Positions 4 through 15,547 of a DNA stretch of 56,433 nucleotides are shown piece after piece (positions within the stretch are counted from its first letter, which is position 1; every line of letters begins with the position of its first letter). The notes beneath the pieces were generated by a model. That model saw only the letters and a list, made by a program, of their open reading frames with translations. It did not search any database and had not been told where the DNA came from. The position numbers and the translations under genes are program-made. The stretch spans positions 1-56,433 of the forward strand of contig JAMORY010000012.1 in the NCBI GenBank assembly GCA_027063305.1, written 5' to 3'. This stretch comes from Sulfurovum sp. Its GTDB lineage: Bacteria > Campylobacterota > Campylobacteria > Campylobacterales > Sulfurovaceae.

Positions 4-1194
4 ATGAGACTGAGTGAACTCAAAAACAAAACCCTTGTCGAAGCAGCTGCGCTTTTGGGTGTGGATGAAAAGGTTGTGGCACTCGAACGCTTCCTTGCTT
101 TGGGACTTCCGAGCAAAAAGAGTGAAGAGTACCGTTATTTTCACATTGAAAAGCTGCTTGAAGCAGACTACAATACCCTTACCTACATCCCTAAGCCCAT
201 CGAAGAGGCAGAGAAGATCATCATCGTTGATGGTGTCGTGACCCATGCACCGCACGGCATGCGTGTCTACTACGACCAGTGTCAGGCGATGGATATGGAG
301 CATTTTGACCCACTCTACTACCTAAGCCACCTGCTCAGCCCGCATGTGATCAAAATTGACCTTGACGGCGACACCGATGTGGAGATAGAGCACCACTACA
401 CACAGTCCAATGCACTCATCAACTACCGCATCGTCCTTTTCAATCAGGCAAACCGTCACGCGACAGTGTTCGAGACCTTCCATGAAGAGAAGATAGCCGA
501 CACACTGGTACTCTATGGGTATGATGTACTGGTCGCTCCCGATAGTACCCTGCGCATCTTAAAAAACCAGTATATGCAGAACAACCGCTATGCAATGATC
601 GCGTCACACAGACTCCACCTTGAGCAGCGTGCCAATGCCGTTATCAAGAGTTTTGACCTTGGCGGTGACATGGGACTGCAACTGATCAAAGCGGATCTTG
701 ACCGCTATGCCCACATCGATGCGGGACACCTGCTCTACCTCAATGCCGACTCGCAAAGAGGAACGGTGAGCAAGATCATCCACAAGGGTGAGCACTCTAC
801 CTCAGTGCAGGAGGCAAAGAACATCCTTGACGGTAACGCCAGAGGGATCTTCGATGCACTCATCAAGGTCGAGCATACCGCAAAGTGGACAAAAGCACAC
901 CAGAACTCCAAAGCGATACTGCTCGATGAAAAAGCCTACATGGCAAGTAAACCGCAGCTTGAAATCTACATAGACGAGCTCGAAGCAAGCCACGGTTCAA
1001 CCACCGGTCAGCTCGATGAAAAACAGCTCTTCTACCTGCGCTCACGCGGCATCAGCTACACAGAGGCTAGAAAGATGCTTGTTATCGCCTTTGCCAATAC
1101 GCTCATTGAGCAAGTGAAAGACCATAGACATCAGGATGTGATTAAAGAGGCGTTTGAGAAGGCGTTCTACGCTACTGCAGGAAGTAGGAAGTAG
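4..1194 (+). CDS. sufD: SufD-type Fe-S cluster assembly scaffold protein
   Basis: This 396-residue protein resembles SufD, the partner of SufB and SufC in the cytosolic SUF scaffold that assembles Fe-S clusters. The N-terminal part contains the helical segment LGLPSKKSEEYRY seen in SufB/SufD proteins, and the C-terminal half (about residues 230-380) has the beta-helix plus helical end with SHGSTTGQLDEKQLFYLRSRG, a family hallmark that includes the conserved His and the LRSRG motif. The genes that follow encode SufE and a SufT-like protein, which supports the assignment. The start is an ATG three bases into the window, so its ribosome binding site cannot be seen; sufB and sufC are presumably just outside. 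The last codons (GSRK and the TAG stop) are written by the heptamer repeat that begins here, so the original C-terminus may have been altered. Confidence 0.9.
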   Translation: MRLSELKNKTLVEAAALLGVDEKVVALERFLALGLPSKKSEEYRYFHIEKLLEADYNTLTYIPKPIEEAEKIIIVDGVVTHAPHGMRVYYDQCQAMDMEHFDPLYYLSHLLSPHVIKIDLDGDTDVEIEHHYTQSNALINYRIVLFNQANRHATVFETFHEEKIADTLVLYGYDVLVAPDSTLRILKNQYMQNNRYAMIASHRLHLEQRANAVIKSFDLGGDMGLQLIKADLDRYAHIDAGHLLYLNADSQRGTVSKIIHKGEHSTSVQEAKNILDGNARGIFDALIKVEHTAKWTKAHQNSKAILLDEKAYMASKPQLEIYIDELEASHGSTTGQLDEKQLFYLRSRGISYTEARKMLVIAFANTLIEQVKDHRHQDVIKEAFEKAFYATAGSRK

Positions 1195-1314
1195 GAAGTA
1201 GGAAGTAGGAAGTAGGAATGATAACTATTGTTACACTAAACCTTGCCTTCAATAAAAGCTTTTCAATAGAAAAGCATACCAACACTCCTCACTCCTACCT
1301 CCTACCTCCTCACT
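1177..1314. repeat. Heptamer-bounded palindromic repeat element, copy A
   Basis: A degenerate unit (GCAGGAA, from 1177) and five perfect GTAGGAA units (1184-1218) lead into a unique core, followed by an array of the inverted type (CTCCTAC-like units, about 1285-1314). The core carries the hairpin GCTTTTC-AATA-GAAAAGC (1258-1275). The core from 1219 to about 1290 matches copy B (1822 onward) with a single visible difference over about 70 bases. The element fills the space from the end of sufD to the sufE ribosome binding site. No open reading frame inside it looks real. It may be a non-autonomous mobile element or a repeat spread by another route; no transposase was seen in the window. Confidence 0.9.
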
Positions 1315-1331
1315 AAAATAAAAGGATCAAA

Positions 1332-1748
1332 ATGAATATTGAAGAGACTTTACAACAATACAAAGAGGACTTCGACCTCTTCATGACCCCCAACGAAAAG
1401 ATGGAGTATATCTTCGATCTTGGGAAGAAGCATACCACACTGCCTGAGGAAGCAAAGAATGACGACACTTTCATTGTCGGCTGTGCTTCACCTGCATGGC
1501 TTGTAGGCGAATGTAAGGATGGAAAGCTCATCCTCAGAGGAGAAGGGACATCAGAGATGGCAAAAGGGATGCTGACACTCCTTCTTGACATCTTCAGCAA
1601 CAAAGAGGTAGATGAAGTCTTAGCGTTCGATCCGCAAAGACTGAGTGAACTTGGCATCGTCGAACTCCTCTCCCCTGTGAGGCAGCAGAGCCTTGAAGCG
1701 TTCATTAAGAAAGTATATGAGTATGCACGGAAGTGTAAAGAGAAGTAG
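1332..1748 (+). CDS. sufE: SufE cysteine desulfuration accessory protein
   Basis: This 138-residue protein matches the SufE family, which accepts persulfide sulfur from the cysteine desulfurase SufS and hands it to the SufBCD scaffold. The active Cys lies in the motif VGCASPAW (about residues 49-56), equivalent to the GC(Q/A)S loop of SufE. The length is typical of the family. An AAAGGA ribosome binding site precedes the ATG. It sits between sufD and the sufT-like gene on the same strand and probably shares their transcript. The final lysine codon and the TAG stop merge into the heptamer array of repeat copy B. Confidence 0.93.
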   Translation: MNIEETLQQYKEDFDLFMTPNEKMEYIFDLGKKHTTLPEEAKNDDTFIVGCASPAWLVGECKDGKLILRGEGTSEMAKGMLTLLLDIFSNKEVDEVLAFDPQRLSELGIVELLSPVRQQSLEAFIKKVYEYARKCKEK

Positions 1749-1917
1749 GAAGTAGGAAGTAGGAAGTAGGAAGTAGGAAGTAGGAAGTAGGAAGTAGGAA
1801 GTAGGAAGTAGGAAGTAGGAATGATAACTATTGTTACACTAAACCTTGCCTTAAATAAAAGCTTTTCAATAGAAAAGCATACCAACACTCCTCGTTCCTC
1901 ACTCCTACCTCCTCACT
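1745..1917. repeat. Heptamer-bounded palindromic repeat element, copy B
   Basis: Eleven perfect GTAGGAA units run from 1745 to 1821, followed by a core nearly identical to copy A and an inverted-type array of CTCCTAC/CTCCTCA-like units (about 1885-1917). The core hairpin GCTTTTC-AATA-GAAAAGC is at 1861-1878. The left array starts inside the last codons of sufE and supplies its TAG stop. The right array ends just before the ribosome binding site of the next gene. Array length differs between copies (five versus eleven perfect units), which suggests expansion or contraction by slippage. Confidence 0.92.
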
Positions 1918-1938
1918 AATTAAAAAAGGATTTTTATT

Positions 1939-2430
1939 ATGAAAGACCCAAACGATATTCAATATGACGATATCCCCACTACCCCCGAAGAGATGGCAGC
2001 ATGGGAGGCGAAGTTCGGTAATCAGAACGACACACCTGTAGGTGGTGTTGAGAGCCGTTTTGAAACAGTAGAAGAGAAGACATTCAAACCTGAAGATGCC
2101 GAGCCCGATGAAGAGATGAAAGAGATGGTCATCGAGCAACTTAAAACCATCTATGACCCTGAACTGCCTGTAGACATCTACAACTTAGGGCTCATTTACG
2201 ATGTGGACTGCTGGAAAAACCCTGTAAGCAAACAAAGCGAGTGCAAAGTAACCATGACACTGACTTCTGCCACCTGTTCCATGAGTGAAGTGATCGTCGA
2301 CCTTGTACGTTCCATCCCTGCCCGTATGGGTGGAAAGCTGGCTTCTGTCGATGTAGAACTGGTATTCGATCCACCATGGGATCAGAGTAAGATGAGTGAT
2401 GAAGCCAAGTTGGCGATGGGGATGCTATGA
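1939..2430 (+). CDS. sufT: SufT-like MIP18/DUF59 Fe-S maturation protein
   Basis: This 163-residue protein has an acidic N-terminal extension (about residues 1-55) and a C-terminal MIP18/DUF59 domain (about 56-163) with the typical motifs TIYDPELPVDIYNLGLIYDV and TLTSATCSMSEVIVDLV; the Cys in the second motif is the conserved family cysteine. Such proteins (SufT, and PaaD in a different pathway) help deliver Fe-S clusters to target proteins. An AAAAAAGGA ribosome binding site lies upstream of the ATG. The position after sufD and sufE supports a role in Fe-S assembly. Its stop codon overlaps the stop codon of the convergent kpsS gene by six bases, leaving no room for a separate terminator. Confidence 0.85.
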   Translation: MKDPNDIQYDDIPTTPEEMAAWEAKFGNQNDTPVGGVESRFETVEEKTFKPEDAEPDEEMKEMVIEQLKTIYDPELPVDIYNLGLIYDVDCWKNPVSKQSECKVTMTLTSATCSMSEVIVDLVRSIPARMGGKLASVDVELVFDPPWDQSKMSDEAKLAMGML

Positions 2431-3639
2431 TGTAGAGGAGTAGGTTTCATCCTGCTCCAACTCTACAGGGAACATCCCATAGAAACTCCCATTAAGTTGC
2501 GTATTCTCGATCAGGTACTGTCTAAACTTCTGATACAATTGAAGATCAGGTTTTTTATGGTTACGCCAGAACTTACGTAAAGAGATACCTTTATTCGTAA
2601 GCCCTTTCATATCATAGATAGCATCACCTAATGTAATGGTCGGAATGCCGTATGAGACAGACGTCAACCCAACCGTACTGTTGATCGTTACTGTCCCTAT
2701 CGCATGCTTTAAACATGAGGGGAGGAAAACATCATGTACAACAAGAACCCGTTTATCGATACCAAGCAGTATTGCTTGTTCAAGTATGAAATTCCGGTAG
2801 TTCTTTCGTCCTCTATCTACGGGATGGTGTTTGAAAAGTAAATATCTATCATCCGGTGCATGCCGTGCAAAAGACTCCAGTACTTCAATAATGAACTTTT
2901 CTATAGAGCGATAATGGGAGTGTTGCAGGATCTGAAAATCATTATGGGTCTGCAAAGGAACAAAGTAATATCTCTTCGACAATTCACCGGTAATAAGAGG
3001 AAGGTACTTTCGCTCCGTCAGTGCGTACAATCCTTTTCTAAAGACTCCTCTGATCCCATGAAAAAGCTCCTTGATCGCAGAGAACTCCCTGTGGTGTTCA
3101 TAGTGAGGATATTTAAACTGAAAAATATTGGAGAGTCCATAGTAGAGTGCGGCACTCATGACCATTTTATACTTACTTTGCTTAGCATGCTTGGGTTCAG
3201 GCGTAGGAACTTCCTGAAGTTCATTGTAAAAAGATGCTTCTCTAGGAAGCGTACTAAAGCCGTTCACACCGAACTTTTCCAAGGTTACATAGTGAGGTCG
3301 TAAGTAGCCCTCTTCAAAAACAAAAACATCTATCCCCTTTTCAAAAGCGATCTTACGTGCAATTCTCTGATAGTATCTACAATCCCCAAAAAGGAATATC
3401 TTATCTATCTGCTTCTCTTCAAGAAAATCCGCAATATACTTCGGCCAATTCCGAGGTGTATCTCTATAAGGAATCGTATTGTCACGATAAGAAAAGAACT
3501 GATCCCCCATATTAAAACAGATCTTAAAAGTATATGCTCCACGAAGGCGAAAACGTTTATCGAGGCGTTTAAAAAAGCTTCCCATAGGACCTTGCAGCAG
3601 TAGTATGTTCTTGCCCTTGATTTCGCCTATGCTATTCAC
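2425..3639 (-). CDS. kpsS: KpsS capsule lipid-anchor Kdo transferase
   Basis: This 404-residue protein resembles KpsS, the cytoplasmic enzyme that puts the first beta-Kdo on the phosphatidylglycerol anchor of ABC-exported (group 2) capsules. Visible marks are the N-terminal LLLQGPMGSFF, the segment FVFEEGYLRPHYVTLEKFGVN (about residues 126-146, the EEGY-RP motif), the KHHPVDRG motif near residue 270, and TINSTVGLTSVSYGIPTITLG near 320-340. The length fits the family. It is the last gene of the capsule operon and its start overlaps the end of the KpsC C-terminal-half gene by eight bases, so the two are probably translated in a coupled way. Its stop overlaps sufT-like on the opposite strand. 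Confidence 0.9.
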   Translation of the reverse strand: MNSIGEIKGKNILLLQGPMGSFFKRLDKRFRLRGAYTFKICFNMGDQFFSYRDNTIPYRDTPRNWPKYIADFLEEKQIDKIFLFGDCRYYQRIARKIAFEKGIDVFVFEEGYLRPHYVTLEKFGVNGFSTLPREASFYNELQEVPTPEPKHAKQSKYKMVMSAALYYGLSNIFQFKYPHYEHHREFSAIKELFHGIRGVFRKGLYALTERKYLPLITGELSKRYYFVPLQTHNDFQILQHSHYRSIEKFIIEVLESFARHAPDDRYLLFKHHPVDRGRKNYRNFILEQAILLGIDKRVLVVHDVFLPSCLKHAIGTVTINSTVGLTSVSYGIPTITLGDAIYDMKGLTNKGISLRKFWRNHKKPDLQLYQKFRQYLIENTQLNGSFYGMFPVELEQDETYSSTS

Positions 3640-4735
3640 CGAGGAGTACCTTTATAAGCTGTTGAATTTTCCGTGATATAAAATTACGAATATCAATGCT
3701 TGTTTTATAAAAAATATCGGTATTATAACGTGTTTTCATTAGCTCAATGTTAGCAAGCGTAACTTCTACTTCACATTCTTTATTACTTAATGGATCAATA
3801 TACCTAGGATATAATATTAAAGTTGCCGCAACAAGCTCATCCAATGTACGATCTTTTACTCTTCGTTTACAAACTTTTACATCATTTGTTAATCCCCATC
3901 CAGCGTAGAAAGGCATTCCATAAGTAAATACAATCTTTCCACGTAAAAGTGATTCAAAACCTACCAAAGAAGTCATAGTGTGCACTTCATCTCCATGTTC
4001 AAGAACAGAGTCCAAACTTACATCCGTTATAACATTATCGGCAAAAGATAAAGCTTGTTCTAAAGGGATATTACCTTTTCTATTTCCCACAAGAACATCG
4101 GGGTGAGGTTTATAAATAATATAACTATCAGGTCTTTTTTTCCTTACTGCTTGAAGGAGTTCCATGTTGGTCATTCCTCCGGCACCATAAATAATAGATG
4201 CATCATCTTCAACCTGTCCGGGGACGATAATAACCTTCTGCCCTTTTTTTAGACCTTCTAAGTAAATTTTGTTATCAGGGTTTATATTGTATTTAGAAAG
4301 TTTCTTCTCAACTAAATACATTCGAAGTTTCTTAGCACGGCTACGTAGGTCATCATCAAATGAATATGTATTGAGTAGATATTCAAGATCACTCTCCTGT
4401 ATCGGGTCAAAGTATATCCCTCGACGATCAAAGACCAAAGAGTATGGTTTTGTCAGATCCGATCCCAGAGAGAGTGAACGGATAAATCCATCTTCTACAC
4501 GGTAAAGTGAAATATGGTGTGCCCTGGCATATACTTCAACTTCAGAAAATGGTTTTTTACCCCAGATATAGATCTTGCTTTCATGATCAAGTCCGTTAGA
4601 CTTTGCTTGCTCAAGTGACTGAGAAAAATAACATTTTCCCTCTTTTTCAAAAAAAGGTTTGATATATATTCTTTTCCAGAAAGAAAAGCCAAAAAGAAAT
4701 AATTTCAATTGATTTTTTTGCACGATATAACCCAT
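3632..4735 (-). CDS. kpsC: KpsC C-terminal-half Kdo transferase (separate gene)
   Basis: KpsC normally is one protein of about 670-700 residues with two glycosyltransferase domains that alternate in building the beta-Kdo linker of group 2 capsules. This 367-residue protein corresponds to the second domain: it has VEDGFIRSLSLGSDL (about residues 80-94), YSLVFDRRGIYFDP, a KPHPDVLVGNRKGN motif and the FYAGWGLT motif near the end. The first domain is encoded by the adjacent upstream gene; the two overlap as TAATG at 4733-4737. The split is clean, with each half carrying its own conserved motifs, so this looks like a gene fission, not a degraded kpsC. The start is the ATG in the overlap. Confidence 0.85.
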   Translation of the reverse strand: MGYIVQKNQLKLFLFGFSFWKRIYIKPFFEKEGKCYFSQSLEQAKSNGLDHESKIYIWGKKPFSEVEVYARAHHISLYRVEDGFIRSLSLGSDLTKPYSLVFDRRGIYFDPIQESDLEYLLNTYSFDDDLRSRAKKLRMYLVEKKLSKYNINPDNKIYLEGLKKGQKVIIVPGQVEDDASIIYGAGGMTNMELLQAVRKKRPDSYIIYKPHPDVLVGNRKGNIPLEQALSFADNVITDVSLDSVLEHGDEVHTMTSLVGFESLLRGKIVFTYGMPFYAGWGLTNDVKVCKRRVKDRTLDELVAATLILYPRYIDPLSNKECEVEVTLANIELMKTRYNTDIFYKTSIDIRNFISRKIQQLIKVLLGE

Positions 4736-5709
4736 TATATTATTTTAGGGTATTCTACCCTTCGTTGCTTTATTATCTCCATGATCGTATCGATAATATC
4801 CGAATCTCTCATTTTGTATGGATTATAATAACGTGTATAGAGAATGTATGCTCCTGCAAACAGCTCTTCTACACTCAAGTTCCGATCTCTTCTTTTTAAA
4901 ATCTTCTCTATCTCTTCACTCTTAACGTTTAACGCTACATTTCCAAGACTCCATCCTGCATAAAATGGTAGACCATACAGCTTTACCCCTTTCCCCAATA
5001 ATAAAGCTTCAAAACCCATCTGCGATGTTTGTGTATAGACCACATCAAACACTTCGAGCAGGACTATTGGATTGATGTTCTCCGTAATGACCTTGCAGTG
5101 TGCTTTAGCGTAGTCTACATCTACATTGGACTCTTTTTTCCCTGCCAGTACATCGGGGTGAACCTTCACATAGACTTCAGCATCAGGATACTCCACTATT
5201 GCATCGCGTATCATCGCTTGTGGATCTTGAGATGCCAGTCCATACCGGAGCGATGCATCACCTGCCGTCTGGGCGACGATAAGTACTTTTTTCGTACTGC
5301 TTTTCAAATATGCCGGCAGTTCAAGCGGTGCGTTGTTGTATTTGGAGATCTTATGCTCTTTGATAAGCGCTATGGCTCTATCTGCCTGCTGCATCAGTGC
5401 ACTGTCTGTTGCAAAATCGTAGGTATTTAAGATGTTTTCAAGCTTTGAAGGGGTGGTGGCGTCATAGTATATGCCCATATCATCTTCAACCAAAGAAAAA
5501 GAGGGACTCCCCTCTACACCCAAACCGATAGAGCGGATAAAACCATCTTCAAGAAGAATAAAATTACTATGGTATTTTTTTGCTAATGCTATAGCCTTTT
5601 GTCCAGACTTTTTACGTCCCCAGCCATAAAAACATATAGGTTCTTTACTTTGAAAAAAAGGAAGGAAACACTTCTTAATCTCTACAAAATTCTTACTACT
5701 TTCGATCAA
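4735..5709 (-). CDS. kpsC: KpsC N-terminal-half Kdo transferase (separate gene)
   Basis: This 324-residue protein corresponds to the first transferase domain of KpsC. It has CFYGWGRKKSGQKA, LLEDGFIRSIGLGVEGSPS, a VKVHPDVLAGKKESN motif and FYAGWS near the end, which are the expected KpsC landmarks. The first recognisable start is a TTG at 5709, preceded by AAGAAAG. The frame stays open further upstream, and a much stronger ribosome binding site (GAAGGAGA, 5741-5748) sits seven to eight bases before an in-frame GTA codon (5731-5733), so the true start may lie there or may have decayed. It is coupled to the C-terminal-half gene by a TAATG overlap, which would keep the two halves in balance. Confidence 0.83.
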   Translation of the reverse strand: MIESSKNFVEIKKCFLPFFQSKEPICFYGWGRKKSGQKAIALAKKYHSNFILLEDGFIRSIGLGVEGSPSFSLVEDDMGIYYDATTPSKLENILNTYDFATDSALMQQADRAIALIKEHKISKYNNAPLELPAYLKSSTKKVLIVAQTAGDASLRYGLASQDPQAMIRDAIVEYPDAEVYVKVHPDVLAGKKESNVDVDYAKAHCKVITENINPIVLLEVFDVVYTQTSQMGFEALLLGKGVKLYGLPFYAGWSLGNVALNVKSEEIEKILKRRDRNLSVEELFAGAYILYTRYYNPYKMRDSDIIDTIMEIIKQRRVEYPKII

Positions 5710-5770
5710 CTTTCTTGAAATAGTATAGTTTACGATAGTATCTCCTTCACCTTCTCTACTTTATTCAGAA

Positions 5771-6877
5771 TCAACGACACACACGTTCTGATAACCATGT
5801 TATACGTTCTTTATAGTCCATATTCTCGAACAAGGTATCTTCATAAGCAATATAATAGGCTTTTACCTCTTTTAAGATACCATTCGTTAGAAGAGATGAA
5901 ATATCTTGAATCAAAGCATTATTGACTGCTACATTACGATAGTATTCATCTAATAGAGGTGAAGAAGGAAGGGCTATTGGTCTATCTTTAAAAAAAACAT
6001 GTGTAGGAATCTCTCTGTCCAATAACTGCGTTTCCATTGCCGATATATCACAAAAAGCTTCCTTAATTGGAATAGTATCATCTTGCGATATATACATCTT
6101 ATTAGACTTAAAATAATAGTGAAGAGGTTTTCCTATGAATTTTAGATTTACCTCTCTTACACGTACCGTAATGCCTTCATCAATAGCATACCGTATGGAC
6201 TGATAAAGATAATAGAGATACCGTGGATCCCTATGCCCTAAGTTTGGATGTATTTGTATAACGAGATCATCTAAGTTATTCTCTTTCATATATGAAATCA
6301 AAACAAAAAAGTTTTTCCCATCTCTTGAAATACTTGTGTAGTTTTCAACTTCTAACCCACCTTCCCATGTTGGTGCATACAGAATACTTTTTGTATTACT
6401 GCTGTAGATATATTTGGCATTTCCAATAAAGGTATTTCCCATTTGAATTAGTTTCCCGTTCTCTATATCACAATTTGAGAATATACCACTTTCCAATAAC
6501 CTATCTACACCAGCCTTCCCTGCAACGATCACATAATCATAAATTCTCAATATAGGTTTGACTGAAGGCAGTTTATTACTCTCTCCATGTGTAACAAAAA
6601 TATGTTTCGCCTCCCGATGGGCCACTACTCTACAATTAGACTGAGCATTAAAAAGGTAGAAAACGATACTTTTCTCTAATTTGGGAAAATTACTATAATT
6701 TGAAAAGGTTATATAATTTATGTGATATTTACGAAGATCAGCTAGAAAAGTTTTATTTTCTCTATATAGCTTAAAAATAACGGTACAATCAGGGGTAAAA
6801 ACACCACTCTTATAATAAGAGATCAGCTGAGTGATCGCTCCTTTTATTTTCGTATCTATATAAATGTATTTTTTCAT
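5771..6877 (-). CDS. CDP-glycerol/ribitol phosphotransferase family protein
   Basis: This 368-residue protein resembles the TagB/TagF/TarL group, cytoplasmic enzymes that transfer polyol phosphate from CDP-glycerol or CDP-ribitol to a growing polymer. The key sites are present: FVTHGESNK (the HG-x-x-x-K motif) about residue 94, LYAPTWEGG about 167-175, VIQIHPNLGHRD (HP motif) about 207-218, and CDISAMETQLLDREIP near 278-293. It is shorter than Gram-positive polymerases, closer to primase-like or capsule-type members. It lies in the capsule operon with a CDP-ribitol synthase gene, so ribitol-phosphate transfer is the likely role; the exact acceptor cannot be read from sequence. Confidence 0.75.
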   Translation of the reverse strand: MKKYIYIDTKIKGAITQLISYYKSGVFTPDCTVIFKLYRENKTFLADLRKYHINYITFSNYSNFPKLEKSIVFYLFNAQSNCRVVAHREAKHIFVTHGESNKLPSVKPILRIYDYVIVAGKAGVDRLLESGIFSNCDIENGKLIQMGNTFIGNAKYIYSSNTKSILYAPTWEGGLEVENYTSISRDGKNFFVLISYMKENNLDDLVIQIHPNLGHRDPRYLYYLYQSIRYAIDEGITVRVREVNLKFIGKPLHYYFKSNKMYISQDDTIPIKEAFCDISAMETQLLDREIPTHVFFKDRPIALPSSPLLDEYYRNVAVNNALIQDISSLLTNGILKEVKAYYIAYEDTLFENMDYKERITWLSERVCR

Positions 6878-7698: not shown

Positions 7699-7699
7699 T

Positions 7700-8743
7700 C
7701 TATAACTGTTCTACCGTTTTAATTAAATTTTTCTTAAATTCATCATGTATAGATAACGCTTTATCAAACAGTATATTTACTATATATTCTCTACTTTCTT
7801 TTAGTGGATCCTGCAAATGTAGCAATTGCAATAAATCAATAAGTTCTTGATACTCAGTCCAATAATAGAGAGAGTCCTGAATTATATCAGGGATAAGAGA
7901 ATGTCGTTCTTCTTCATCTTCAATATATACCAATACAGGCGTACCATAAGTTAAAAGATATGGTATGAAATTTTTATTATCCGTTATAATCAATGAAACT
8001 TTAAAGGCAAACTCATCAACTATCTTTTTTGTAGTAACAGGAATAATTTTATTACCTATACCCGAGATAGTTGTGATACTCTCTAAATTTTGATATATAT
8101 CTTTTTTTTCCTCTGGAAGATATATATAACTCTTAAGATTTTGTTCTACATTCGCAAAATATATTTTTTCTAAAATTGCGTTTTTAGGCTCTACTAATAC
8201 AAGAGAAGTATTTTGTTCTTTTGCTGTATATAAAATATTCTCTTTTATCTGAGGTTTCCCAATAGACTTAAGTTTTAAATGCCCAATATTTTTAATAGAT
8301 TCTTTAAATCGTGTTATTGCATACTCCCCTCCAGCCCAAAACTCATCATATGCTCTATATGATTTATTGTAATTACTTAACCAATCAGAATTTTTTGTAC
8401 CAATAAAAATATGTTTTAAATGATTAAATCTAAGAAGATGAATATTTCTTGCTAAGTTTGAGGTATATAGCACTACTTTCAAATCTGGCTGAGCATTGAC
8501 TACAGTTTCAACATCAACAGGTGTTTTTGCATAACATATTTGCAGTTTTGGAAACTGTTTTGTAAGTTGGGTAAAACTTTTTTCATCTCTTACCAAAATA
8601 GAAAAGTCAATACCGCTTTTTACGATTTCACTCAACCAGAAATTGACATGATTGACTGTTAGTTTTGGATCGGCAGTATGTAACATAACCCTATTATTAC
8701 TATTTTTCTTCAATCTTCTGATATCAACATCTGCCATCTTCAA
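7700..8743 (-). CDS. Degenerate CDP-polyol phosphotransferase paralogue
   Basis: This 347-residue protein is clearly related to the protein encoded immediately upstream (8724-9950). Shared stretches include MLHTADPKL against LLHTGENAS, LLRFNHLKHIFIG against LLKFNEIKHIFIG, and AYDEFWAGGEYAITRF against VYDENWVAGEAHIDRF. The catalytic motifs of the family are missing: HIFIGHGDSDK has become HIFIGTKNSDW (His lost), the STWEG segment has become VEPKNA, and the HP motif and the CDIS motif are gone (SLIITDNKNF instead). It therefore looks like a pseudoenzyme, perhaps a partner or regulator of the active paralogue. The frame is intact, so it is not simply a dead gene. Its start overlaps the upstream gene by 20 bases. 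Confidence 0.7.
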   Translation of the reverse strand: MKMADVDIRRLKKNSNNRVMLHTADPKLTVNHVNFWLSEIVKSGIDFSILVRDEKSFTQLTKQFPKLQICYAKTPVDVETVVNAQPDLKVVLYTSNLARNIHLLRFNHLKHIFIGTKNSDWLSNYNKSYRAYDEFWAGGEYAITRFKESIKNIGHLKLKSIGKPQIKENILYTAKEQNTSLVLVEPKNAILEKIYFANVEQNLKSYIYLPEEKKDIYQNLESITTISGIGNKIIPVTTKKIVDEFAFKVSLIITDNKNFIPYLLTYGTPVLVYIEDEEERHSLIPDIIQDSLYYWTEYQELIDLLQLLHLQDPLKESREYIVNILFDKALSIHDEFKKNLIKTVEQL

Positions 8744-9950
8744 TCCTCTTCAATTGTTCTATAAACTCATCATTTAATGTTTCATCTCTTCCCAATATAT
8801 ACTCCATAGCCTCTTCTCTTTTTTCAGCCAAGTAGTCATTGCCATTTACAATCACTTCTTCAATTTTATCCATAAGCTCTTCAATAGACGAAAAGACATA
8901 GGTATAATCTTCATAACTCATACTACTCTGAGAAAGTTTGATATCTTTCTCTTTTGGCATATATACAAAAATAGGCGTATTGGCTGCCAAAGACTCCGAA
9001 ATTACCGCCGAAATATCACAAATGAAAACATTGGATATTTTAATTATCTCTTCTACTGGCATAGTTTTATCGTACAAATTATAGTCTACGCCTGAATTGG
9101 ATAAAAGAGCATTCAGTTTTGCATTTGTTTTTAATAGTTTTGTATCTCTTCTTCCTACCCATGGATGAAGTTTAATACCGATTGTGTCAAAAATATTTTT
9201 ATCTTTTATCTCTTCAAAAAACTTATCTATCAAATAGACTGATGTATAGTCTTGTTCTTCATATACCCCTTCCCATGTAGACAAATAAAGGAGATTTAAA
9301 TTACCGTTAAATCTCTCTTGCCAAGGAGTTTGAGAGATTAGAAGTGTTTCTTTCAGGTTTGGCCTTCCGACTTTTACCTGTTTTAACCCACTAAAATCAA
9401 ATCCTGCATTCCTGAAACGATCGATATGTGCTTCTCCGGCTACCCAGTTTTCATCATAGACCCTAAAGTATTTATGGGCACTGGCTGTTTTGTCACTGTC
9501 TCCATGTCCTATAAATATATGCTTTATTTCATTAAACTTTAAAAGGTGAAGATTGTTTCCAGTATTTGAAGGGTAAAAACATGCTTTTAAAAAAAGCATC
9601 TTCTCAATGTATCTTTCAACCTCTTTATCCCCTTTGGCATAAAGAAGAGTAAGTTGAGGATACTTCTTTTTTACAAGTTCAAAAAGTTCATTGTTACGAA
9701 CCATCACAACAAACTTAATTTCAGCATTTATAAAATGTGGAATCCAAAGATCTAAATGGCTTAAACCTGAAGCATTTTCTCCAGTATGTAATAAATGTGT
9801 ATACTTAAAAAATGGATTAAACTGATAATTAGCAGTAGACTTCCCTTTAGTTGAAGTATTTGAAGACCTATCTACACTACCTAATCGTTTCTTCCACATA
9901 TCTTTAAAAAAAAGTACCGGATCCTTTTGAAGTTTAGACCATTTACTCAT
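8724..9950 (-). CDS. CDP-glycerol/ribitol phosphotransferase family protein
   Basis: This 408-residue protein belongs to the TagF/TarL-like polyol-phosphate transferases. Visible motifs are KHIFIGHGDSDK (HG-x-x-x-K, about residues 135-146), LLYLSTWEGVYEEQDY (about 220-235), IGIKLHPWVGRRD (HP motif, about 258-270) and FICDISAVISESLAANTPIFVY (about 310-331). All the sites lost in the neighbouring paralogue are kept here, so this is the likely active copy. The first 45 residues are a basic extension without recognisable domain. It lies four bases after the CDP-ribitol synthase gene, which suggests it consumes that product to build the capsule polymer. Confidence 0.75.
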   Translation of the reverse strand: MSKWSKLQKDPVLFFKDMWKKRLGSVDRSSNTSTKGKSTANYQFNPFFKYTHLLHTGENASGLSHLDLWIPHFINAEIKFVVMVRNNELFELVKKKYPQLTLLYAKGDKEVERYIEKMLFLKACFYPSNTGNNLHLLKFNEIKHIFIGHGDSDKTASAHKYFRVYDENWVAGEAHIDRFRNAGFDFSGLKQVKVGRPNLKETLLISQTPWQERFNGNLNLLYLSTWEGVYEEQDYTSVYLIDKFFEEIKDKNIFDTIGIKLHPWVGRRDTKLLKTNAKLNALLSNSGVDYNLYDKTMPVEEIIKISNVFICDISAVISESLAANTPIFVYMPKEKDIKLSQSSMSYEDYTYVFSSIEELMDKIEEVIVNGNDYLAEKREEAMEYILGRDETLNDEFIEQLKRIEDGRC

Positions 9951-9953
9951 CTA

Positions 9954-11333
9954 CTAAACCTTTTGTATCTTAACATCAATGATCTGCCCAGTTAAACGAC
10001 TCAATAAAGCATTTAATGATGCATATGCCACATCTTTCGCATCCAAGAGTGTAGAAGGATCCTCTTTCCCAAAATTACTTGTTCTCATAGGAGTTGCTGT
10101 ACGCTCAGGATTGATACAGTTAATCCTTACATCTTTACTTAACCACTCTTCCGCTAAAGCTTGCGTTAAATTCACGATTGCTGCTTTAGATGAACTATAG
10201 AGTGCATAGTTCCCTCTACCTCTTGTATATGAACTGGAAGTAAAGTTCAATAGTTGTCCTGATGTTTTTTCCAAATACTGAATTGATTCTTTTGCTACAT
10301 TGACAGCACCAAGATAATTAACGTTAATTATATCCAATACCTTCTCATATGAGATATTCTGTAAAGGCTCTTTAATCAAGATCGAAGCAGTATTAACAAC
10401 AAAATCGATCTTTCCTTCTTTATCATACACATATGCTAGATCACGCTTAATGTCAGATATAGAAGAGACATCCGTATTTGTTTCGCTTCTACTAAATGTA
10501 TAGACCTTTGCATTATTTGCTTGTGCAATCTCTGCAATCTCTTTACCAATACCATATGAACCACCAAAAACAACAAGTACTTTTTGGTAAAGTAACTTTG
10601 CATAATACTCAGAAGAGTATTTTTGTGTTAACTGGGTTGTTTTCAACTGAAAAAGTTTATCAGCCATAAAGATATCTTGTGCATGCGTAATCTTTATATT
10701 TTTCATACTTCCATCAACAACATATATCTCTTCATGTGGTAAATATTTCTTTACAACACCACAATCATCCGTCGGTTTAAAACTACTATCTTCACTTGCC
10801 AACGCATATGCTTTTTTGATCGTTTCGAGCCTAAAACATTGTGGGGTCTGTCCCTGCATCATTTTTGCTCTTTCCGGTATATTTTTAATAATCTTCTTAT
10901 CAACCTCGATAATCGTATCTGTTGCCGGGATTGCAACATCAACTGCATTATAATGCTGCAATGCCTCAACACATTTTTCTATAATACGCGTATCTACAAA
11001 AGGACGAACCGCATCGTGAAAAATCATATTGAGATTTTTTTCTTCTAAACTATAGGCTTCAATAGCACTGAGAGATGAATCTTTTCTCTCTTCACCCCCA
11101 GAAAGGATCTTTTTTACTTTAGCAAAATTATTATCATTTACGATCTCTTCGATCTTCCATATCCAATCTGGATGTATAACAATACATATCTCATCGATCA
11201 ATGCATGTTGTTCAAAAACTTCGATCGTATGCTCTATAATACTCTTTCCGGCTAGTTTGGCAAACTGTTTTGGAATCTCAAGACCGAACCTACTTCCTGT
11301 CCCACCTGCTAAAATAATACCTATATTTCTCAT
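9954..11333 (-). CDS. Bifunctional CDP-ribitol synthase (cytidylyltransferase-SDR fusion)
   Basis: This 459-residue protein joins two enzymes. Residues 1 to about 230 form an IspD/TarI-type cytidylyltransferase with ILAGGTGSRFGLEIPKQF and the substrate-site segment DAVRPFVD. Residues about 245-459 form a short-chain dehydrogenase with the nucleotide loop VVFGGSYGIGKE and the catalytic YSSSK. This is the layout of Haemophilus influenzae Bcs1/Acs1, which reduces ribulose 5-phosphate and makes CDP-ribitol; the length is nearly the same. A housekeeping IspD role is less likely, because Campylobacterota usually fuse IspD to IspF and because the gene sits in a capsule operon. It would supply the activated sugar alcohol for the two intact transferases next door. 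Confidence 0.82.
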   Translation of the reverse strand: MRNIGIILAGGTGSRFGLEIPKQFAKLAGKSIIEHTIEVFEQHALIDEICIVIHPDWIWKIEEIVNDNNFAKVKKILSGGEERKDSSLSAIEAYSLEEKNLNMIFHDAVRPFVDTRIIEKCVEALQHYNAVDVAIPATDTIIEVDKKIIKNIPERAKMMQGQTPQCFRLETIKKAYALASEDSSFKPTDDCGVVKKYLPHEEIYVVDGSMKNIKITHAQDIFMADKLFQLKTTQLTQKYSSEYYAKLLYQKVLVVFGGSYGIGKEIAEIAQANNAKVYTFSRSETNTDVSSISDIKRDLAYVYDKEGKIDFVVNTASILIKEPLQNISYEKVLDIINVNYLGAVNVAKESIQYLEKTSGQLLNFTSSSYTRGRGNYALYSSSKAAIVNLTQALAEEWLSKDVRINCINPERTATPMRTSNFGKEDPSTLLDAKDVAYASLNALLSRLTGQIIDVKIQKV

Positions 11334-11353
11334 ATTAAATTCGTCCTTTATAT

Positions 11354-12457
11354 TTAATCTTGATGATTATGGATAATACCGATGATCGTACTTACAATAC
11401 TATAGATAAATAACAATACAACCAATATGGTAAACACATCCCATAGTTTATTAGGATATGTATAATCGTCTGCTAACGTCGGTTTGGCGACTACAATAAG
11501 ATGCTTTGCTTTTTGTGCTACCTCTATCTTAACCTCTTCCTGGTTGATGAGGGTTTGGCGGTAGACCTCTTTGGCAAACTCCATGTCACTTTTAAGTAAT
11601 TGGAACTCAAAAACATTCGCATTAAGCTCTTTACCTTGCTTTGTCCCTGAAAGTTGTTTTTTTACCCTTGCAATGGAAGCACGGATGTTTCGGATGTTCT
11701 CTTTAAGCATCTTGACTTCACGACTGTTCGGATTGAAGGTTTTCAGCTTGGTAGCATACTCCACCTCACTCTTGACAAGCTCTGTTTCAAGTTCCGTTAG
11801 AATAGTGATCTTTCGTTCTACATCAAGTGACGGATCAATGGTATGATGGCTGTTTTGATAATCTATAAGCTTTTTGATAGCTTCTACAAAAAGCTTTCTC
11901 TTCTCTTGACGCTGCTTCTCAATAAAGCGTAATGCGATCTGTGCATTCTCTTTTGCAAATTGATTAATGATCTCTTCGGATCTTTTAATAATACTTTGCA
12001 GTATCGATTGCGCAATCTTAGGATCAGTATGTACAAATGTCAATTCCAATGTACCTGACGGGTCATCATAAACAACATGTAGATCTTGATTATATTTCTC
12101 TATAATATGCTGTTTATTGGCACGAAAATATGGGATATTTGAATCAGGATAAAGACGTTGTGCAAAATCAAGTTCATCTGATATATAGTGTTTTGTCAGA
12201 TCGAATCTACTATCAATATAGGAGAACATCTCATTTGATCTGATATAAAGCTCCAAAACTTTCGAATCCTGCATAGTACTACTACCCTGCCCTAAAAGCA
12301 TCTCACTTAAGTTAACAGTCTGCTTCTTAGAGAGATCTTTTAAAAGCGTAATACTCTTAGACTCATAACGCTCGGACTCTATTGTGACAATATATGTTAC
12401 TGCTAAAAGAAAAAGCGTAACGAAGAGTATACGCAGTAGCCATTTTACTTTTGTCAT
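11354..12457 (-). CDS. kpsE: KpsE-like capsule export inner-membrane protein
   Basis: This 367-residue protein has the KpsE/BexC/CtrB layout: an N-terminal membrane segment (about residues 5-27), a long periplasmic domain with predicted coiled coil (about 150-300, rich in E, K, Q and R), and a C-terminal membrane segment (LWDVFTILVVLLFIYSIVST). KpsE links the KpsMT transporter to the outer-membrane exporter. An earlier in-frame ATG at 12487 would add ten residues but overlaps kpsT and has no ribosome binding site; the ATG at 12457 follows AAGGGAAAATAAGAG and is preferred, five bases after the kpsT stop. Confidence 0.85.
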   Translation of the reverse strand: MTKVKWLLRILFVTLFLLAVTYIVTIESERYESKSITLLKDLSKKQTVNLSEMLLGQGSSTMQDSKVLELYIRSNEMFSYIDSRFDLTKHYISDELDFAQRLYPDSNIPYFRANKQHIIEKYNQDLHVVYDDPSGTLELTFVHTDPKIAQSILQSIIKRSEEIINQFAKENAQIALRFIEKQRQEKRKLFVEAIKKLIDYQNSHHTIDPSLDVERKITILTELETELVKSEVEYATKLKTFNPNSREVKMLKENIRNIRASIARVKKQLSGTKQGKELNANVFEFQLLKSDMEFAKEVYRQTLINQEEVKIEVAQKAKHLIVVAKPTLADDYTYPNKLWDVFTILVVLLFIYSIVSTIIGIIHNHQD

Positions 12458-12461
12458 TCTC

Positions 12462-13130
12462 TTATTTTCCCTTTTTATTGATGTCATTATAGCGGCTTAT
12501 CGCTTCATCAATGTTGTCATAATAGTAGAGTTGACCATCATGTATAAGCAAGCCCGTTTGACACATTTGTTGAAGTGTTTTCATCTCATGACTTACCAAA
12601 ATAACATGGCAATTCTCTATTTTTTTCAATAGCACATCTTTGGCTTTTTTCTTAAAACGCGCATCTCCGACCGAAAGCGTCTCATCGATGATCATGTAAT
12701 CAAAGTCAAATGCCAGACTCAGACCGAATCCAAGTCTTCCTTTCATTCCCGAAGAGTAGGTTTTGATAGGCATATCGAAGTAATCACCCAATTCTGAGAA
12801 CTCTTTAACGTAAGCGATCACCTCTCTTGTCTCATCTTTACTTAAACCATACAGATTACAGACGAACTTTACATTTTGCGCACCGGTCATATTACCTACA
12901 AATCCACCACCTAATCCAAGTGGCCATGAGAATGTATTATTGGAATGTATCGTACCTTGATTAGGAAATTCTATTTTTCCAAGCATACGCATTAGAGTGG
13001 ATTTCCCTGCACCGTTCCTTCCAAGAATGCCGATGTTTCCATCGGGAAGTGTCATTGTTACGTCTTTAAGAATATACTTCTTCCCTGCATTCGTTCGAAA
13101 ATACTTGGTTACATTTGTTAGTTCTATCAT
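12462..13130 (-). CDS. kpsT: KpsT capsule ABC transporter ATPase
   Basis: This 222-residue protein is an ABC ATPase of the KpsT/BexA/CtrD group. It has the Walker A loop GRNGAGKST (about residues 37-45), the signature YSSGMKGRLGFGLSLAFD, the Walker B MIIDETLSVGD and the switch His in HVILVSHEMK. It lacks the extra C-terminal carbohydrate-binding domain found in Wzt-type O-antigen exporters, which fits a group 2 capsule transporter. It overlaps kpsM by four bases (13127-13130), so ATPase and permease are made together at the inner membrane to export the finished lipid-linked polymer. Confidence 0.93.
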   Translation of the reverse strand: MIELTNVTKYFRTNAGKKYILKDVTMTLPDGNIGILGRNGAGKSTLMRMLGKIEFPNQGTIHSNNTFSWPLGLGGGFVGNMTGAQNVKFVCNLYGLSKDETREVIAYVKEFSELGDYFDMPIKTYSSGMKGRLGFGLSLAFDFDYMIIDETLSVGDARFKKKAKDVLLKKIENCHVILVSHEMKTLQQMCQTGLLIHDGQLYYYDNIDEAISRYNDINKKGK

Positions 13131-13921
13131 TGTGAGATAATCCTTTTTTCAAGACGACGATAGAGCCAAAGACCTATAAATAAAGGTATAACCGTCCACA
13201 TCAGTATATAACGATAATCTACAAAACGATCATCCAACCCTACAATATAGGCACCATGTATCATCTCCATAAAGTGCACTAAAGGATTATAAAGAAGAGC
13301 ATCCTGTGCTGCAGAAGGAAGTGAAATAAGGGGAAAAAAAACCGCTGAAAAAATAAGCAATGCAAAAGATATAATACCAATAAACTTTCCAACACTGACA
13401 AAAAACGTATTGCCCACAGCAACTACAAGTCCTACCCCTAAAGAGAAAAGAACAAGCCATATATATCCTGCAAATAACATAAGTGGATTCTCTGGAAGTA
13501 AGTTATCCTGTTCAGTAATAAAGCCGACGGCAAGAAAGATCACAATAATGATAGAGGAGAGGAACATCTCAACAAGTACACGTGAAAAGATCGTATCTAT
13601 CGGTTTTACCTGCTTATAGGCAAAAAGCCCCCTATTTGCTTGAAATGCACCTTTTGATGCATTCAATATATGTTTAAAAAGGTTGAAAGCAATAAACCCT
13701 GAAGCCATAAATACGGCCAAATTATAGTGTGTGGCCATTGATTTACCTGTATGGTTCATAATAGCAACACGTATTGCAACAAAGATAAATATTTGTAAGA
13801 AAGGTTCAAAAAAAGTCCAGAAAAGTCCCGATTTACCTACACTGATACGCATATCTAACTCACGAAGAAAAAGTGCTTTTATCACAGCAGTAAAAATATG
13901 TAGGGGCTTCCTTGCAACCAT
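13127..13921 (-). CDS. kpsM: KpsM capsule ABC transporter permease
   Basis: This 264-residue protein has the features of the ABC-2 polysaccharide permeases (KpsM, BexB, CtrC): a basic N-terminal stretch with FLRELDMRISVGKSGLFWTFFEPF, and about six hydrophobic segments that include IFIFVAIRVAIMN, FMASGFIAFNLF, IIIVIFLAVGFI and ISFALLIFSAVFFPLISLP, ending with a basic tail. It forms the membrane channel with KpsT. The gene follows the exporter lipoprotein gene at a spacing of eight bases. Confidence 0.92.
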   Translation of the reverse strand: MVARKPLHIFTAVIKALFLRELDMRISVGKSGLFWTFFEPFLQIFIFVAIRVAIMNHTGKSMATHYNLAVFMASGFIAFNLFKHILNASKGAFQANRGLFAYKQVKPIDTIFSRVLVEMFLSSIIIVIFLAVGFITEQDNLLPENPLMLFAGYIWLVLFSLGVGLVVAVGNTFFVSVGKFIGIISFALLIFSAVFFPLISLPSAAQDALLYNPLVHFMEMIHGAYIVGLDDRFVDYRYILMWTVIPLFIGLWLYRRLEKRIISQ

Positions 13922-13929
13922 ACGCTTTC

Positions 13930-14685
13930 TTACTCCGAAAGATATTTCAACGTTACGAAAGGAGAAGCGATCGCCGTAAATGTCTTAAATGGTGACGTAT
14001 AATTATCTGATTCAACTCTGAACTTTTTCCATTTATCAGGTTTAACATAAACGATATCGTTGGGCCTAAGCATAAGACTTGCATAGTTCATCGCATCAAA
14101 ATTTGTAAGATCCACTTTACGCATACGCATACCGTTCTCTTTGGGTGAGATTATCACAATGCTATTGCGAACAGCTGCATCTGTTAATCCGCCAGAAAAT
14201 GCTATTGCTTCAAACAATGTCATTTTCTCTTTATCGATCCTTATCACACCTTGTTTATAAACTTCCCCCAATACATAGATACGCTTATTCATGATCTCCA
14301 CATATACAGAAGGATTAGTTAACTCTTTTTTATAAAGTGCTTCTATCTTATCCGAAGCTTCCGTTTGTGTCAGTCCGGCAACTTTTACTTTACCTATAAG
14401 AGGAAGTTTAATATATCCTGCGGCATTTACTAAAATACCATCTGGATTAATATCTTCACCTAACTTTCCAGAACCGTTCTCTGCCGATATTTGCCCCGGA
14501 TCTTTATAAAGAATAACTTTAAGTCTATCTTGGGGAAGTATCTTATATTCAATACTAGCTGCTGTAACTTTTTGCTCTTCGATTGTATGATGGGTTTGCA
14601 CAAGTTCATAATTTGATCTATCTGTACATCCGCTTATCACTGCCACTACAATAAAAAAAAGTATCAATTTTAAATAATATATCAT
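13930..14685 (-). CDS. kpsD: Wza/KpsD-type polysaccharide export lipoprotein
   Basis: This 251-residue protein starts with a lipoprotein signal (VVAVISGC, Cys about residue 20). It then has a polysaccharide export domain (about 45-140, YKILPQDRLKVILYKDPG and YIKLPLIGKVKVAGLTQTEA) and one SLBB domain (about 145-210, IYVLGEVYKQG and FEAIAFSGGLTDAA). It is the outer-membrane part of the capsule export path. It is much shorter than E. coli KpsD (over 500 residues) and closer to a minimal Wza/BexD; the last 30 residues (FKTFTAIASPFVTLKYL) could be the amphipathic helix that lines an outer-membrane pore, by analogy with Wza. It is the first gene of the minus-strand capsule operon. Confidence 0.82.
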   Translation of the reverse strand: MIYYLKLILFFIVVAVISGCTDRSNYELVQTHHTIEEQKVTAASIEYKILPQDRLKVILYKDPGQISAENGSGKLGEDINPDGILVNAAGYIKLPLIGKVKVAGLTQTEASDKIEALYKKELTNPSVYVEIMNKRIYVLGEVYKQGVIRIDKEKMTLFEAIAFSGGLTDAAVRNSIVIISPKENGMRMRKVDLTNFDAMNYASLMLRPNDIVYVKPDKWKKFRVESDNYTSPFKTFTAIASPFVTLKYLSE

Positions 14686-14829
14686 ATGTGCTATCTATTC
14701 CAATCAGAATCTCTATTTAAGATTTTTGTATAGTAATAATTATAGCTAAAATTCATTATAGGTTTGTAAACAGTACACATAGAATTTAGGCTAAGTACCC
14801 TATAATAAACAAAAAAGGCTTTTTATCAC
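14686..14829. promoter_or_regulatory. Divergent promoter region between kpsD and ubiX
   Basis: This AT-rich gap separates the minus-strand capsule operon from plus-strand ubiX and must hold promoters for both. On the plus strand a TATAAT lies about 25 bases before the ubiX ATG, in CCCTATAATAAAC, without a clear -35. On the minus strand a TATAAT within GCTATAATTATTAC, upstream of kpsD, is a candidate -10. Missing -35 boxes are usual for the housekeeping sigma factor of Campylobacterota. No operator could be recognised. Confidence 0.45.
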
Positions 14830-15351
14830 ATGAAACTAGTAGTCGCCATTACCGGTGCGAGCGGGGTTGTTTTGGGTCAGAAGTTCGTTGACTATCTTCC
14901 CGAAGATGTTGAAGCGCATGTGGTCGTCTCCGATAATGCTTTGACCGTCGAGCACTTTGAGAATAAGCGGGTCACACTCCACAATGCACAGAATATCGCC
15001 GCTTCTATCTCCAGCGGATCGTTCAGGGTCGATGCGACTGCCATCATCCCCTGCTCTATGAACACGCTTGCAAAGATCGCCTGCGGTATCAGTGACAACC
15101 TCCCTACCCGTGTTGCCGCCGTAGCGCTCAAAGAGCAAAAAAAGCTCCTGCTCGCTCCAAGAGAGCTCCCTTTCTCCGCCATTGCGCTGGAGAATATGCA
15201 TAAACTCGCCTCCTTGGGTGTCATCATCGCCCCTCCTGTCATGGGCTACTATGCTAAGCATCAGTCTCTTGAGGAGATGGAGAGGTTCATCATCGGGAAG
15301 TGGTATGACGTGTTGGGTATTCCCAACGATCTGTATAATCGATGGAAATAA
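14830..15351 (+). CDS. ubiX: UbiX flavin prenyltransferase
   Basis: This 173-residue protein matches UbiX/Pad1, which adds a dimethylallyl group to FMN to make the prenylated flavin cofactor of UbiD-type decarboxylases. The N-terminal VVAITGASGVVLGQKFVDYL is the FMN-binding loop, IIPCSMNTLAKIACGISDNL carries the conserved PCSM-TLA motif, and LLLAPRELPFSAIALENM is the characteristic LAPRE-P motif. The length is slightly under the usual 185-200 residues. In Campylobacterota this cofactor would serve menaquinone or futalosine-route decarboxylases; the partner ubiD is not in the window. Its TAA stop is directly abutted by repeat copy C. Confidence 0.92.
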   Translation: MKLVVAITGASGVVLGQKFVDYLPEDVEAHVVVSDNALTVEHFENKRVTLHNAQNIAASISSGSFRVDATAIIPCSMNTLAKIACGISDNLPTRVAAVALKEQKKLLLAPRELPFSAIALENMHKLASLGVIIAPPVMGYYAKHQSLEEMERFIIGKWYDVLGIPNDLYNRWK

Positions 15352-15513
15352 ATGAATAATTAATAATGAATAATGAATAGTTTTGGTATGCTTTTCTATC
15401 GAAAAGCTTTTATTTGTTATGAGGGAACAATGACTATCTACACATCTAATAGAAGCATTGCACAGCAATGCCTACCGACATCATTCACCATTCATCATTC
15501 ATCATTCATCATT
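15350..15513. repeat. Heptamer-bounded palindromic repeat element, copy C (inverted, diverged)
   Basis: The left boundary array (about 15350-15380) consists of TAATGAA-type units, the right boundary array (about 15480-15513) of TTCATCA units. The core contains the reverse complement of the core in copies A and B: TTGGTATGCTTTTCTAT then GAAAAGCTTTTATT, with hairpin GCTTTTC-TATC-GAAAAGC at 15390-15407; further right, AACAATGACTATC weakly matches the rest. A second perfect hairpin, GCATTGC-ACA-GCAATGC, is at 15455-15471. The element occupies nearly the whole gap between ubiX and coaD. The heptamer sequence differs from copies A and B, but the unit length and the orientation rule are the same. 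Confidence 0.8.
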
Positions 15514-15547
15514 GCAGATCTCGCAGGAGCACACCTGTGAGATCTGC
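15514..15547 (+). promoter_or_regulatory. Hairpin enclosing the coaD ribosome binding site and start codon
   Basis: The left arm GCAGATCTCGCAGG (15514-15527) and right arm CCTGTGAGATCTGC (15534-15547) pair over 14 positions with one G-U pair, around a six-base loop. The AGGAG ribosome binding site lies at the end of the left arm and in the loop, and the GTG start codon (15537-15539) lies in the right arm. In the mRNA this fold should hide the start of coaD. Whether it is a real control switch or a by-product of the adjacent repeat insertion cannot be decided from sequence. Confidence 0.6.

Follow-up and report, generated by a model that had tools for sequence, protein, structure and literature searches.

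The window, i.e. the whole stretch of DNA that was analysed, covers 56,433 nucleotides of a Sulfurovum genome (contig JAMORY010000012.1, assembly GCA_027063305.1). A sufD-like ORF (4-1194) is followed by sufE (1332-1748) and a further gene starting at 1939, and a ubiX-like ORF (14830-15351) is followed by coaD, which starts with GTG at 15537-15539. The minus-strand cluster at 2425-14685 resembles genes for the export and synthesis of a capsule or another polysaccharide, with ABC transporter, export lipoprotein and glycosyltransferase-like ORFs named by eye from their translations. In this window, the original prediction had placed three copies of a repeat with a hairpin core (GCTTTTC/GAAAAGC) bounded by arrays of heptamers, and all three, here called elements A, B and C, were located at the proposed positions. 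Their features are given below, where R1 designates a covariance model built on the hairpin and its flanks.

1179..1218, plus strand: stop-side array of element A, AGGAAGT x5.7 (GTAGGAA, 100% match; TRF)
1218..1316, plus strand: mini-ORF of element A, MITIVTLNLAFNKSFSIEKHTNTPHSYLLPPH followed by a stop, ending 15 nt short of the start of sufE (1332)
1258..1275, minus strand: hairpin of element A, GCTTTTCAATAGAAAAGC, arms GCTTTTC/GAAAAGC (R1 match 1251-1294, minus strand)
1283..1314, minus strand: start-side array of element A, inward units AGTGAGG/AGGTAGG, imperfect (84%), open on the plus strand
1742..1821, plus strand: stop-side array of element B, 11.4 perfect heptamers (TRF)
1821..1919, plus strand: mini-ORF of element B, MITIVTLNLALNKSFSIEKHTNTPRSSLLPPH followed by a stop, ending 19 nt short of the next gene, which starts at 1939
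1861..1878, minus strand: hairpin of element B (R1 match 1854-1897, minus strand)
1886..1917, minus strand: start-side array of element B, 68% match, open on the plus strand
15351..15379, plus strand: stop-side array of element C, AATGAAT/AATTAAT, directly after the stop of the ubiX-like ORF
15390..15407, plus strand: stop-side hairpin of element C, GCTTTTCTATCGAAAAGC (R1 match 15371-15414)
15430..15540, plus strand: mini-ORF of element C, MTIYTSNRSIAQQCLPTSFTIHHSSFIIADLAGAHL followed by a stop, Shine-Dalgarno sequence GAGGG
15455..15471, minus strand: start-side hairpin of element C, GCATTGC/GCAATGC (R1 match 15448-15490, minus strand)
15479..15513, minus strand: start-side array of element C, inward GATGAAT; the mini-ORF reads through it
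15514..15547, plus strand: inverted repeat at the coaD start, abutting the array of element C, GCAGATCTCGCAGG-agcaca-CCTGTGAGATCTGC

Elements A and B supply the stop codons of the genes in front of them: the TAG of the sufD-like ORF (1192-1194) lies in the array of element A and the TAG of sufE (1746-1748) in that of element B. The Shine-Dalgarno sequence of the element A mini-ORF is the AGGA of the array itself. At element C, the stop codon of the mini-ORF (TGA, 15538-15540) overlaps the GTG of coaD, and the inverted repeat at this position holds both the Shine-Dalgarno sequence and the start codon, with a predicted 14-bp RNA hairpin of -25.9 kcal/mol. The expected hairpin core was present in all three copies, but element C, which lies inverted, has the second hairpin GCATTGC/GCAATGC in addition and is thus an inverted pair of two half-elements. 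The cores of A and B, for which about one difference in 70 bases had been claimed, are identical at 68 of 69 bases. Since both elements are absent from all relatives seen, including one with a 94% identical SufE (L106), they look recent. Hairpin matches in the window numbered three as compared to a mean of 0.38 in shuffles, and no match to a known RNA family in Rfam was obtained in the window.

In the 2.03 Mb Sulfurovum genome (G000), about 100 of the 114 R1 matches at E <= 1 are strong. The number of copies ranges from 0 to 90 across 24 other Sulfurovum genomes and from 4 to 74 in fourteen relatives chosen later; outside the genus, the sampled genomes of the order gave a single weak match. 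The repeat family is genus-restricted, patchy and interspersed. Simple ORF rules assigned a position relative to genes to 103 hairpins in G000, 46 of which point toward a gene start and 44 toward a gene end. Read inward, a half-element consists of a heptamer array of fixed phase, a last variant unit (AGTGTTG or similar), GTAT, a stem of the form GCNNNNN with a loop of 3-5 nt, and TTTTATT; the conserved flanks of the hairpin are TTGGTAT before and TTTTATT after the stem. The purine-rich strand of the arrays runs inward, which is a robust fact for the family. Close pairs are inverted, from array-hairpin to hairpin-array, in 20 of 21 cases, with the spacing of the two halves clustering at 0-7 and 26-39 nt. 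Five of seven stem pairs changed on both sides, in rows that were picked for pairing and are hence biased. Two further sequences, the first of them a repeat, occur nested in the elements or beside them: CCCCAAGGGCA(C/T)TTGTC...CTTCGTTCGGGC, or a CCCTTCGGTCGGGCGC-like variant, in or beside some arrays (G000:C27:118302, C3:14874, C8:15385, C27:44056), and GATGAAATC(C/T)CGCAGG(T/A)ACGAGGACAATA in several copies between array and hairpin (C34:8680, C23:43829, C2:72894).

With short covarying hairpins, tens to about 100 intergenic copies and a predominance of inverted pairs, the family resembles the REP/BIME/REPIN repeats, for whose GTAG and CGTC families Sulfurovum NBC37-1 is listed (PMC3733652). 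The elements might therefore be plain REP/REPIN-type palindromes with heptamers grown by slippage, selfish and tolerated, in which mini-ORFs are accidental and blocking insertions have been purged. The inverted pairs, the covarying stems and the patchy copy number fit this explanation, which we regard as quite conceivable if somewhat short of probable. The foot of the Sulfurovum hairpin (TTGGTAT before, TTTTATT after the stem) is neither GTAG nor CGTC, heptamer arrays and a mini-ORF set the repeat apart, and its hairpin was not found flanking Y1/RAYT genes. The repeat is REPIN-like; membership in the REP/RAYT system fails on foot sequence and Y1 linkage.

Mobilisation by a RAYT was rejected, as the hairpin of the family flanks none of 32 Y1 loci apart from L290, where the strong R1 matches correspond to the coaD element. 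No Y1 match was obtained in two genomes with 36 (G020) and 48 (G063) copies, and no transposase for the family was found, with the Y1 search covering the 32 loci. The two Y1 (RAYT-like) genes of G000, C26:14556-14840 (L045) and C11:112783-113109 (L046), are each flanked by different hairpins of their own (GGAATCGGGACTTTAGTCCCG and GTAGGGGTAACCCTCGTGGTTACC, respectively). The family has presumably spread by transposition.

The arrays had been predicted to carry stop codons on the strand reading into the element and none on the strand reading out, and to be selected for this property. Among the 144 arrays with at least three units in G000, 116 contain inward stops in all three frames, 27 in two and 1 in one; inward stops in at least two frames are thus found in 143 of 144, and none of the 24 unit types has stops outward only. 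Outward stops as frequent as inward ones, which would have refuted the rule, were thus not observed. The outward strand is free of stops in 91 of the 144 arrays and carries them in the remainder. Permutation of the letters within the units yields the stop rule in 14.9 of the 24 unit types as compared to 16 observed. Thus, the inward stops follow from strand composition, and stop codons as the main selected property were rejected; a purine-rich strand running inward is enough.

The outward strand behaves differently. Arrays are open outward in all three frames in 30 of 35 cases before gene starts versus 16 of 33 after gene ends (G000; p = 0.0016), and in the relatives in 28 of 30 versus 12 of 33 cases (p = 2e-6). 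In a separate count, 7 of 37 gene-start arrays contained outward stops, some of them preceding an RNA gene or promoter-like sequence. On the stop side, the upstream gene's stop codon lies within the array in 21 of 44 cases genome-wide. Composition accounts for part of the openness, as the selfish reading would have it, but in these counts not for all of it, since it differs between start and stop side; the excess on the start side speaks against that reading. The predicted arrest of entering translation and free passage of leaving translation is thus supported, both by the sufD and sufE stops in arrays A and B and by the more open start-side arrays, and the stopped-in, open-out pattern looks functional. 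What did not stand of the original prediction is selection for the stops, and it had missed the mini-ORF and its ending on the start codon, the second hairpin of element C, the inverted host copies at the borders and the precedent of MIRU (PMC12548453).

Mini-ORFs were assigned from the ATG with the best Shine-Dalgarno sequence, in any frame, in the 90 nt before a gene-start hairpin, and success was defined as a stop codon lying between -8 and +25 relative to the start of the downstream gene. In G000, 25 mini-ORFs cross the hairpin and 19 of them succeed, as compared to 2 and 1 in the other two frames. Five relatives, fetched afterwards, gave 17 successes among 20 crossing mini-ORFs, again with 2 and 1 in the other frames. 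As the thresholds and the simple gene and start calling were set after inspection of G000, the relatives, which had not been used to form the idea, are the cleaner test (17/20, p = 0.0013 against one half). Over both data sets, 36 of 45 crossing mini-ORFs stop on or beside the downstream start, with 6 matches in total in the other two frames; the frame of the Shine-Dalgarno-ATG thus holds 36 of 42 frame successes (p = 1.4e-6 against one half), a bias at odds with accidental mini-ORFs in a tolerated selfish palindrome. The stop lies mostly at +1 (ATGA/GTGA) or -2 (TGATG/TAATG) relative to the downstream start. Frame 0 is used in 22 and frame 1 in 23 cases, i.e. about equally, which argues that the peptide sequence is not what is kept, and a functional peptide was therefore rejected. 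No ATG with a Shine-Dalgarno sequence of at least 4 nt within 90 nt was present for 12 of the 46 gene-start matches in G000, some of which may use GTG or TTG, and 4 of the 46 are without a recognised start.

The same junctions were compared in related species. About 20 of 30 ubiX-coaD gaps examined contain the element, with differing heptamers and unit numbers. All 20 loci flagged as containing the element have a frame that stops at +1 relative to the start of coaD, and 19 of them a recognisable mini-ORF; counted by species, the overlap exists in 18-19 of about 20 element bearers, although related species sharing a copy at one locus do not provide independent cases. L159 has none of the usual mini-ORF sequence, and L141 carries extra sequence. 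The +1 stop alone is a weak test, given the frequency of ATGA starts and its occurrence at some loci without the element; the distinctive feature at coaD is an open frame whose start sits inside the element. This mini-ORF persists in L144 and L149 despite a decayed array or hairpin, and its outliving of the arrays again counts against a merely selfish repeat.

In element-free loci, the neighbouring genes are often overlapped: ubiX and coaD in L153, L158, L162 and L164, sufD and sufE as ATGA in L106, and fabG and the adjoining regulator gene as TAATG in L409, L416, L418 and L420 (L418 and L420, like L421, being scored by eye as without the element). The junction of sufE with the next gene in L106 is not overlapped, and neither are other element-free junctions. 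By-eye comparison of the sufD-sufE and fabG gaps with L106 and L416 places the insertion at the stop/start junction and revealed no clear target duplication besides the inverted host copies. A different repeat, TGAGAC(C/G)CGTTAAG(C/A)AAACGTGAACTGCTTCACGTTT, is located 3' of fabG in L405, L406, L412, L415 and L417.

At the borders of the arrays, stems of at least 7 bp were found in 54% of the start-side and 45% of the stop-side halves, as compared to about 2-3% in shuffled sequence and in windows farther inside the gene. The inner arm adjoins the array, and the outer arm is formed by the end or start of the gene itself; at coaD, in this genome and in L152, the arm agrees with the coding sequence of the respective species. 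At the fabG end, perfect stems of 8-16 bp occur in L403, L404, L407 and L410, all with an element at the gene end, and also in L413 and L421, which are without the hairpin; the stem at the other fabG loci is only 3-5 bp. The border stems, together with their differences between species at fabG, would suit a role in RNA end protection or processing, in which border hairpins and blocks of array plus hairpin would stabilise the 3' and 5' ends of individual cistrons of the operon transcript. This role appears unlikely to us, as it explains neither frame and ending of the mini-ORFs nor the outward-open arrays before starts.

The border inverted repeat may have arisen on insertion or by template switching, or may be a hairpin over the start site that is under selection. 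One rather improbable route is snap-back priming, in which a host 3' end at the gene boundary would copy itself, creating an inverted repeat whose inner arm abuts the array; it would then be extended by repeated addition of 7-base units templated from the terminal heptamer of the element and be joined to the hairpin. A single priming reaction would in that case have yielded the host repeat, the array and the hairpin one after another, and would represent a new mode of insertion. The inverted host copies may in any case shed light on how repeats of this kind arise.

Half-elements also occur inside genes. In two conserved genes, one for a flavoprotein (L423, C3:14440) and murD (L433, C27:180830), they keep the reading frame, are oriented in the open direction and add peptides such as HSSLLTPHSSL in loops of variable length among relatives, and a nucleotidyltransferase-like gene (C32:2487) apparently contains an in-frame, stop-free half-element. 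Rickettsia palindromic elements likewise insert in frame in protein genes; by description, the flavoprotein and murD cases are similar, whereas the Sulfurovum repeat is mainly intergenic.

A third alternative is a regulon acting in trans, in which the hairpins or purine heptamers would bind an RNA-binding protein that controls about 100 mini-ORFs and their downstream genes. The conserved hairpin with its TTGGTAT and TTTTATT flanks beside start sites and old, vertically kept sites such as coaD are compatible with it. A parallel proposal, binding by a regulator, has been made for the TAACTGA heptamers of Beggiatoaceae and other bacteria, which are intergenic tandem repeats near start codons, as are the Sulfurovum arrays, with stops in three forward frames and reverse repeats that can be translated (PMC4679880). 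There, one fixed unit is described without mini-ORF, and a hairpin core or inverted arrays are not known to accompany it. Presence at a given locus differs between Sulfurovum species, many genomes of the genus are without elements, and the neighbouring genes are of varied function (coaD, fabG, sufE, murD, tsaD), all of which makes such a regulon very unlikely in our view.

Overall, we consider it probable, from frame, ending and placement of the mini-ORFs, that the elements lodge between often formerly coupled genes and persist by restoring translational coupling. The upstream-facing half, with its inward array that often holds the stop of that gene, would end translation of the upstream gene. 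Shine-Dalgarno sequence and ATG inside the element would start a mini-ORF of 25-50 codons, which would cross hairpin and array and lead ribosomes to release on the downstream start codon. In many copies, this start site lies in a hairpin made by the inverted copy of the gene start; on terminating, the ribosome would either melt this hairpin or re-initiate at the site, so that genes pushed apart by the insert would stay co-translated. We infer both translation of the mini-ORFs and coupling. The mini-ORFs of elements A and B, which fall 15 and 19 nt short of the following start, count against coupling. Furthermore, purging of bad insertions could yield an identical pattern; this selfish reading and restored coupling differ mainly in whether coupling is maintained or merely survived.

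The coupling arrangement is known from the mycobacterial interspersed repetitive units, MIRU (Supply et al. 1997, summarised in PMC12548453), apparently mobile repeats at operon start codons in which an internal ORF and the gene downstream of it become coupled through a -4 nt overlap (ATGA/GTGA), proposed to minimise insertion damage. The stop of the Sulfurovum repeat ORF likewise overlaps or abuts the downstream start, as in the 36 of 45 crossing mini-ORFs and the coaD series. By description, and unlike MIRU, the Sulfurovum repeat is built from two hairpin halves in inverted orientation plus heptamer arrays, often provides a Shine-Dalgarno sequence for the mini-ORF from within the element, and shows host inverted repeats at its borders and half-elements inside genes. 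New here are the heptamer arrays and, adjoining them, inverted copies of the end or start of the neighbouring gene. ORF-11 of integron attI1 and the short ORFs of attC also have their own Shine-Dalgarno sequence in the recombination site and are coupled to the following gene, and translation of the integron short ORF prevents formation of an inhibitory stem-loop (PMC8876359). The Sulfurovum mini-ORF is similarly short, has its own Shine-Dalgarno sequence and is putatively coupled to the next gene, but belongs to an interspersed repeat and not to a site-specific integrase system.

If restored coupling is correct, the family would be the second instance of a repeat that persists in operons through rebuilt coupling, with another architecture and in a phylum far removed from the first. 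It would provide about 100 natural coupling cassettes per genome, with carrier and non-carrier species at the same junction, whose comparison would make coupling by stop-start overlap testable. A second such case would suggest that a general rule decides which insertions are retained between coupled genes.
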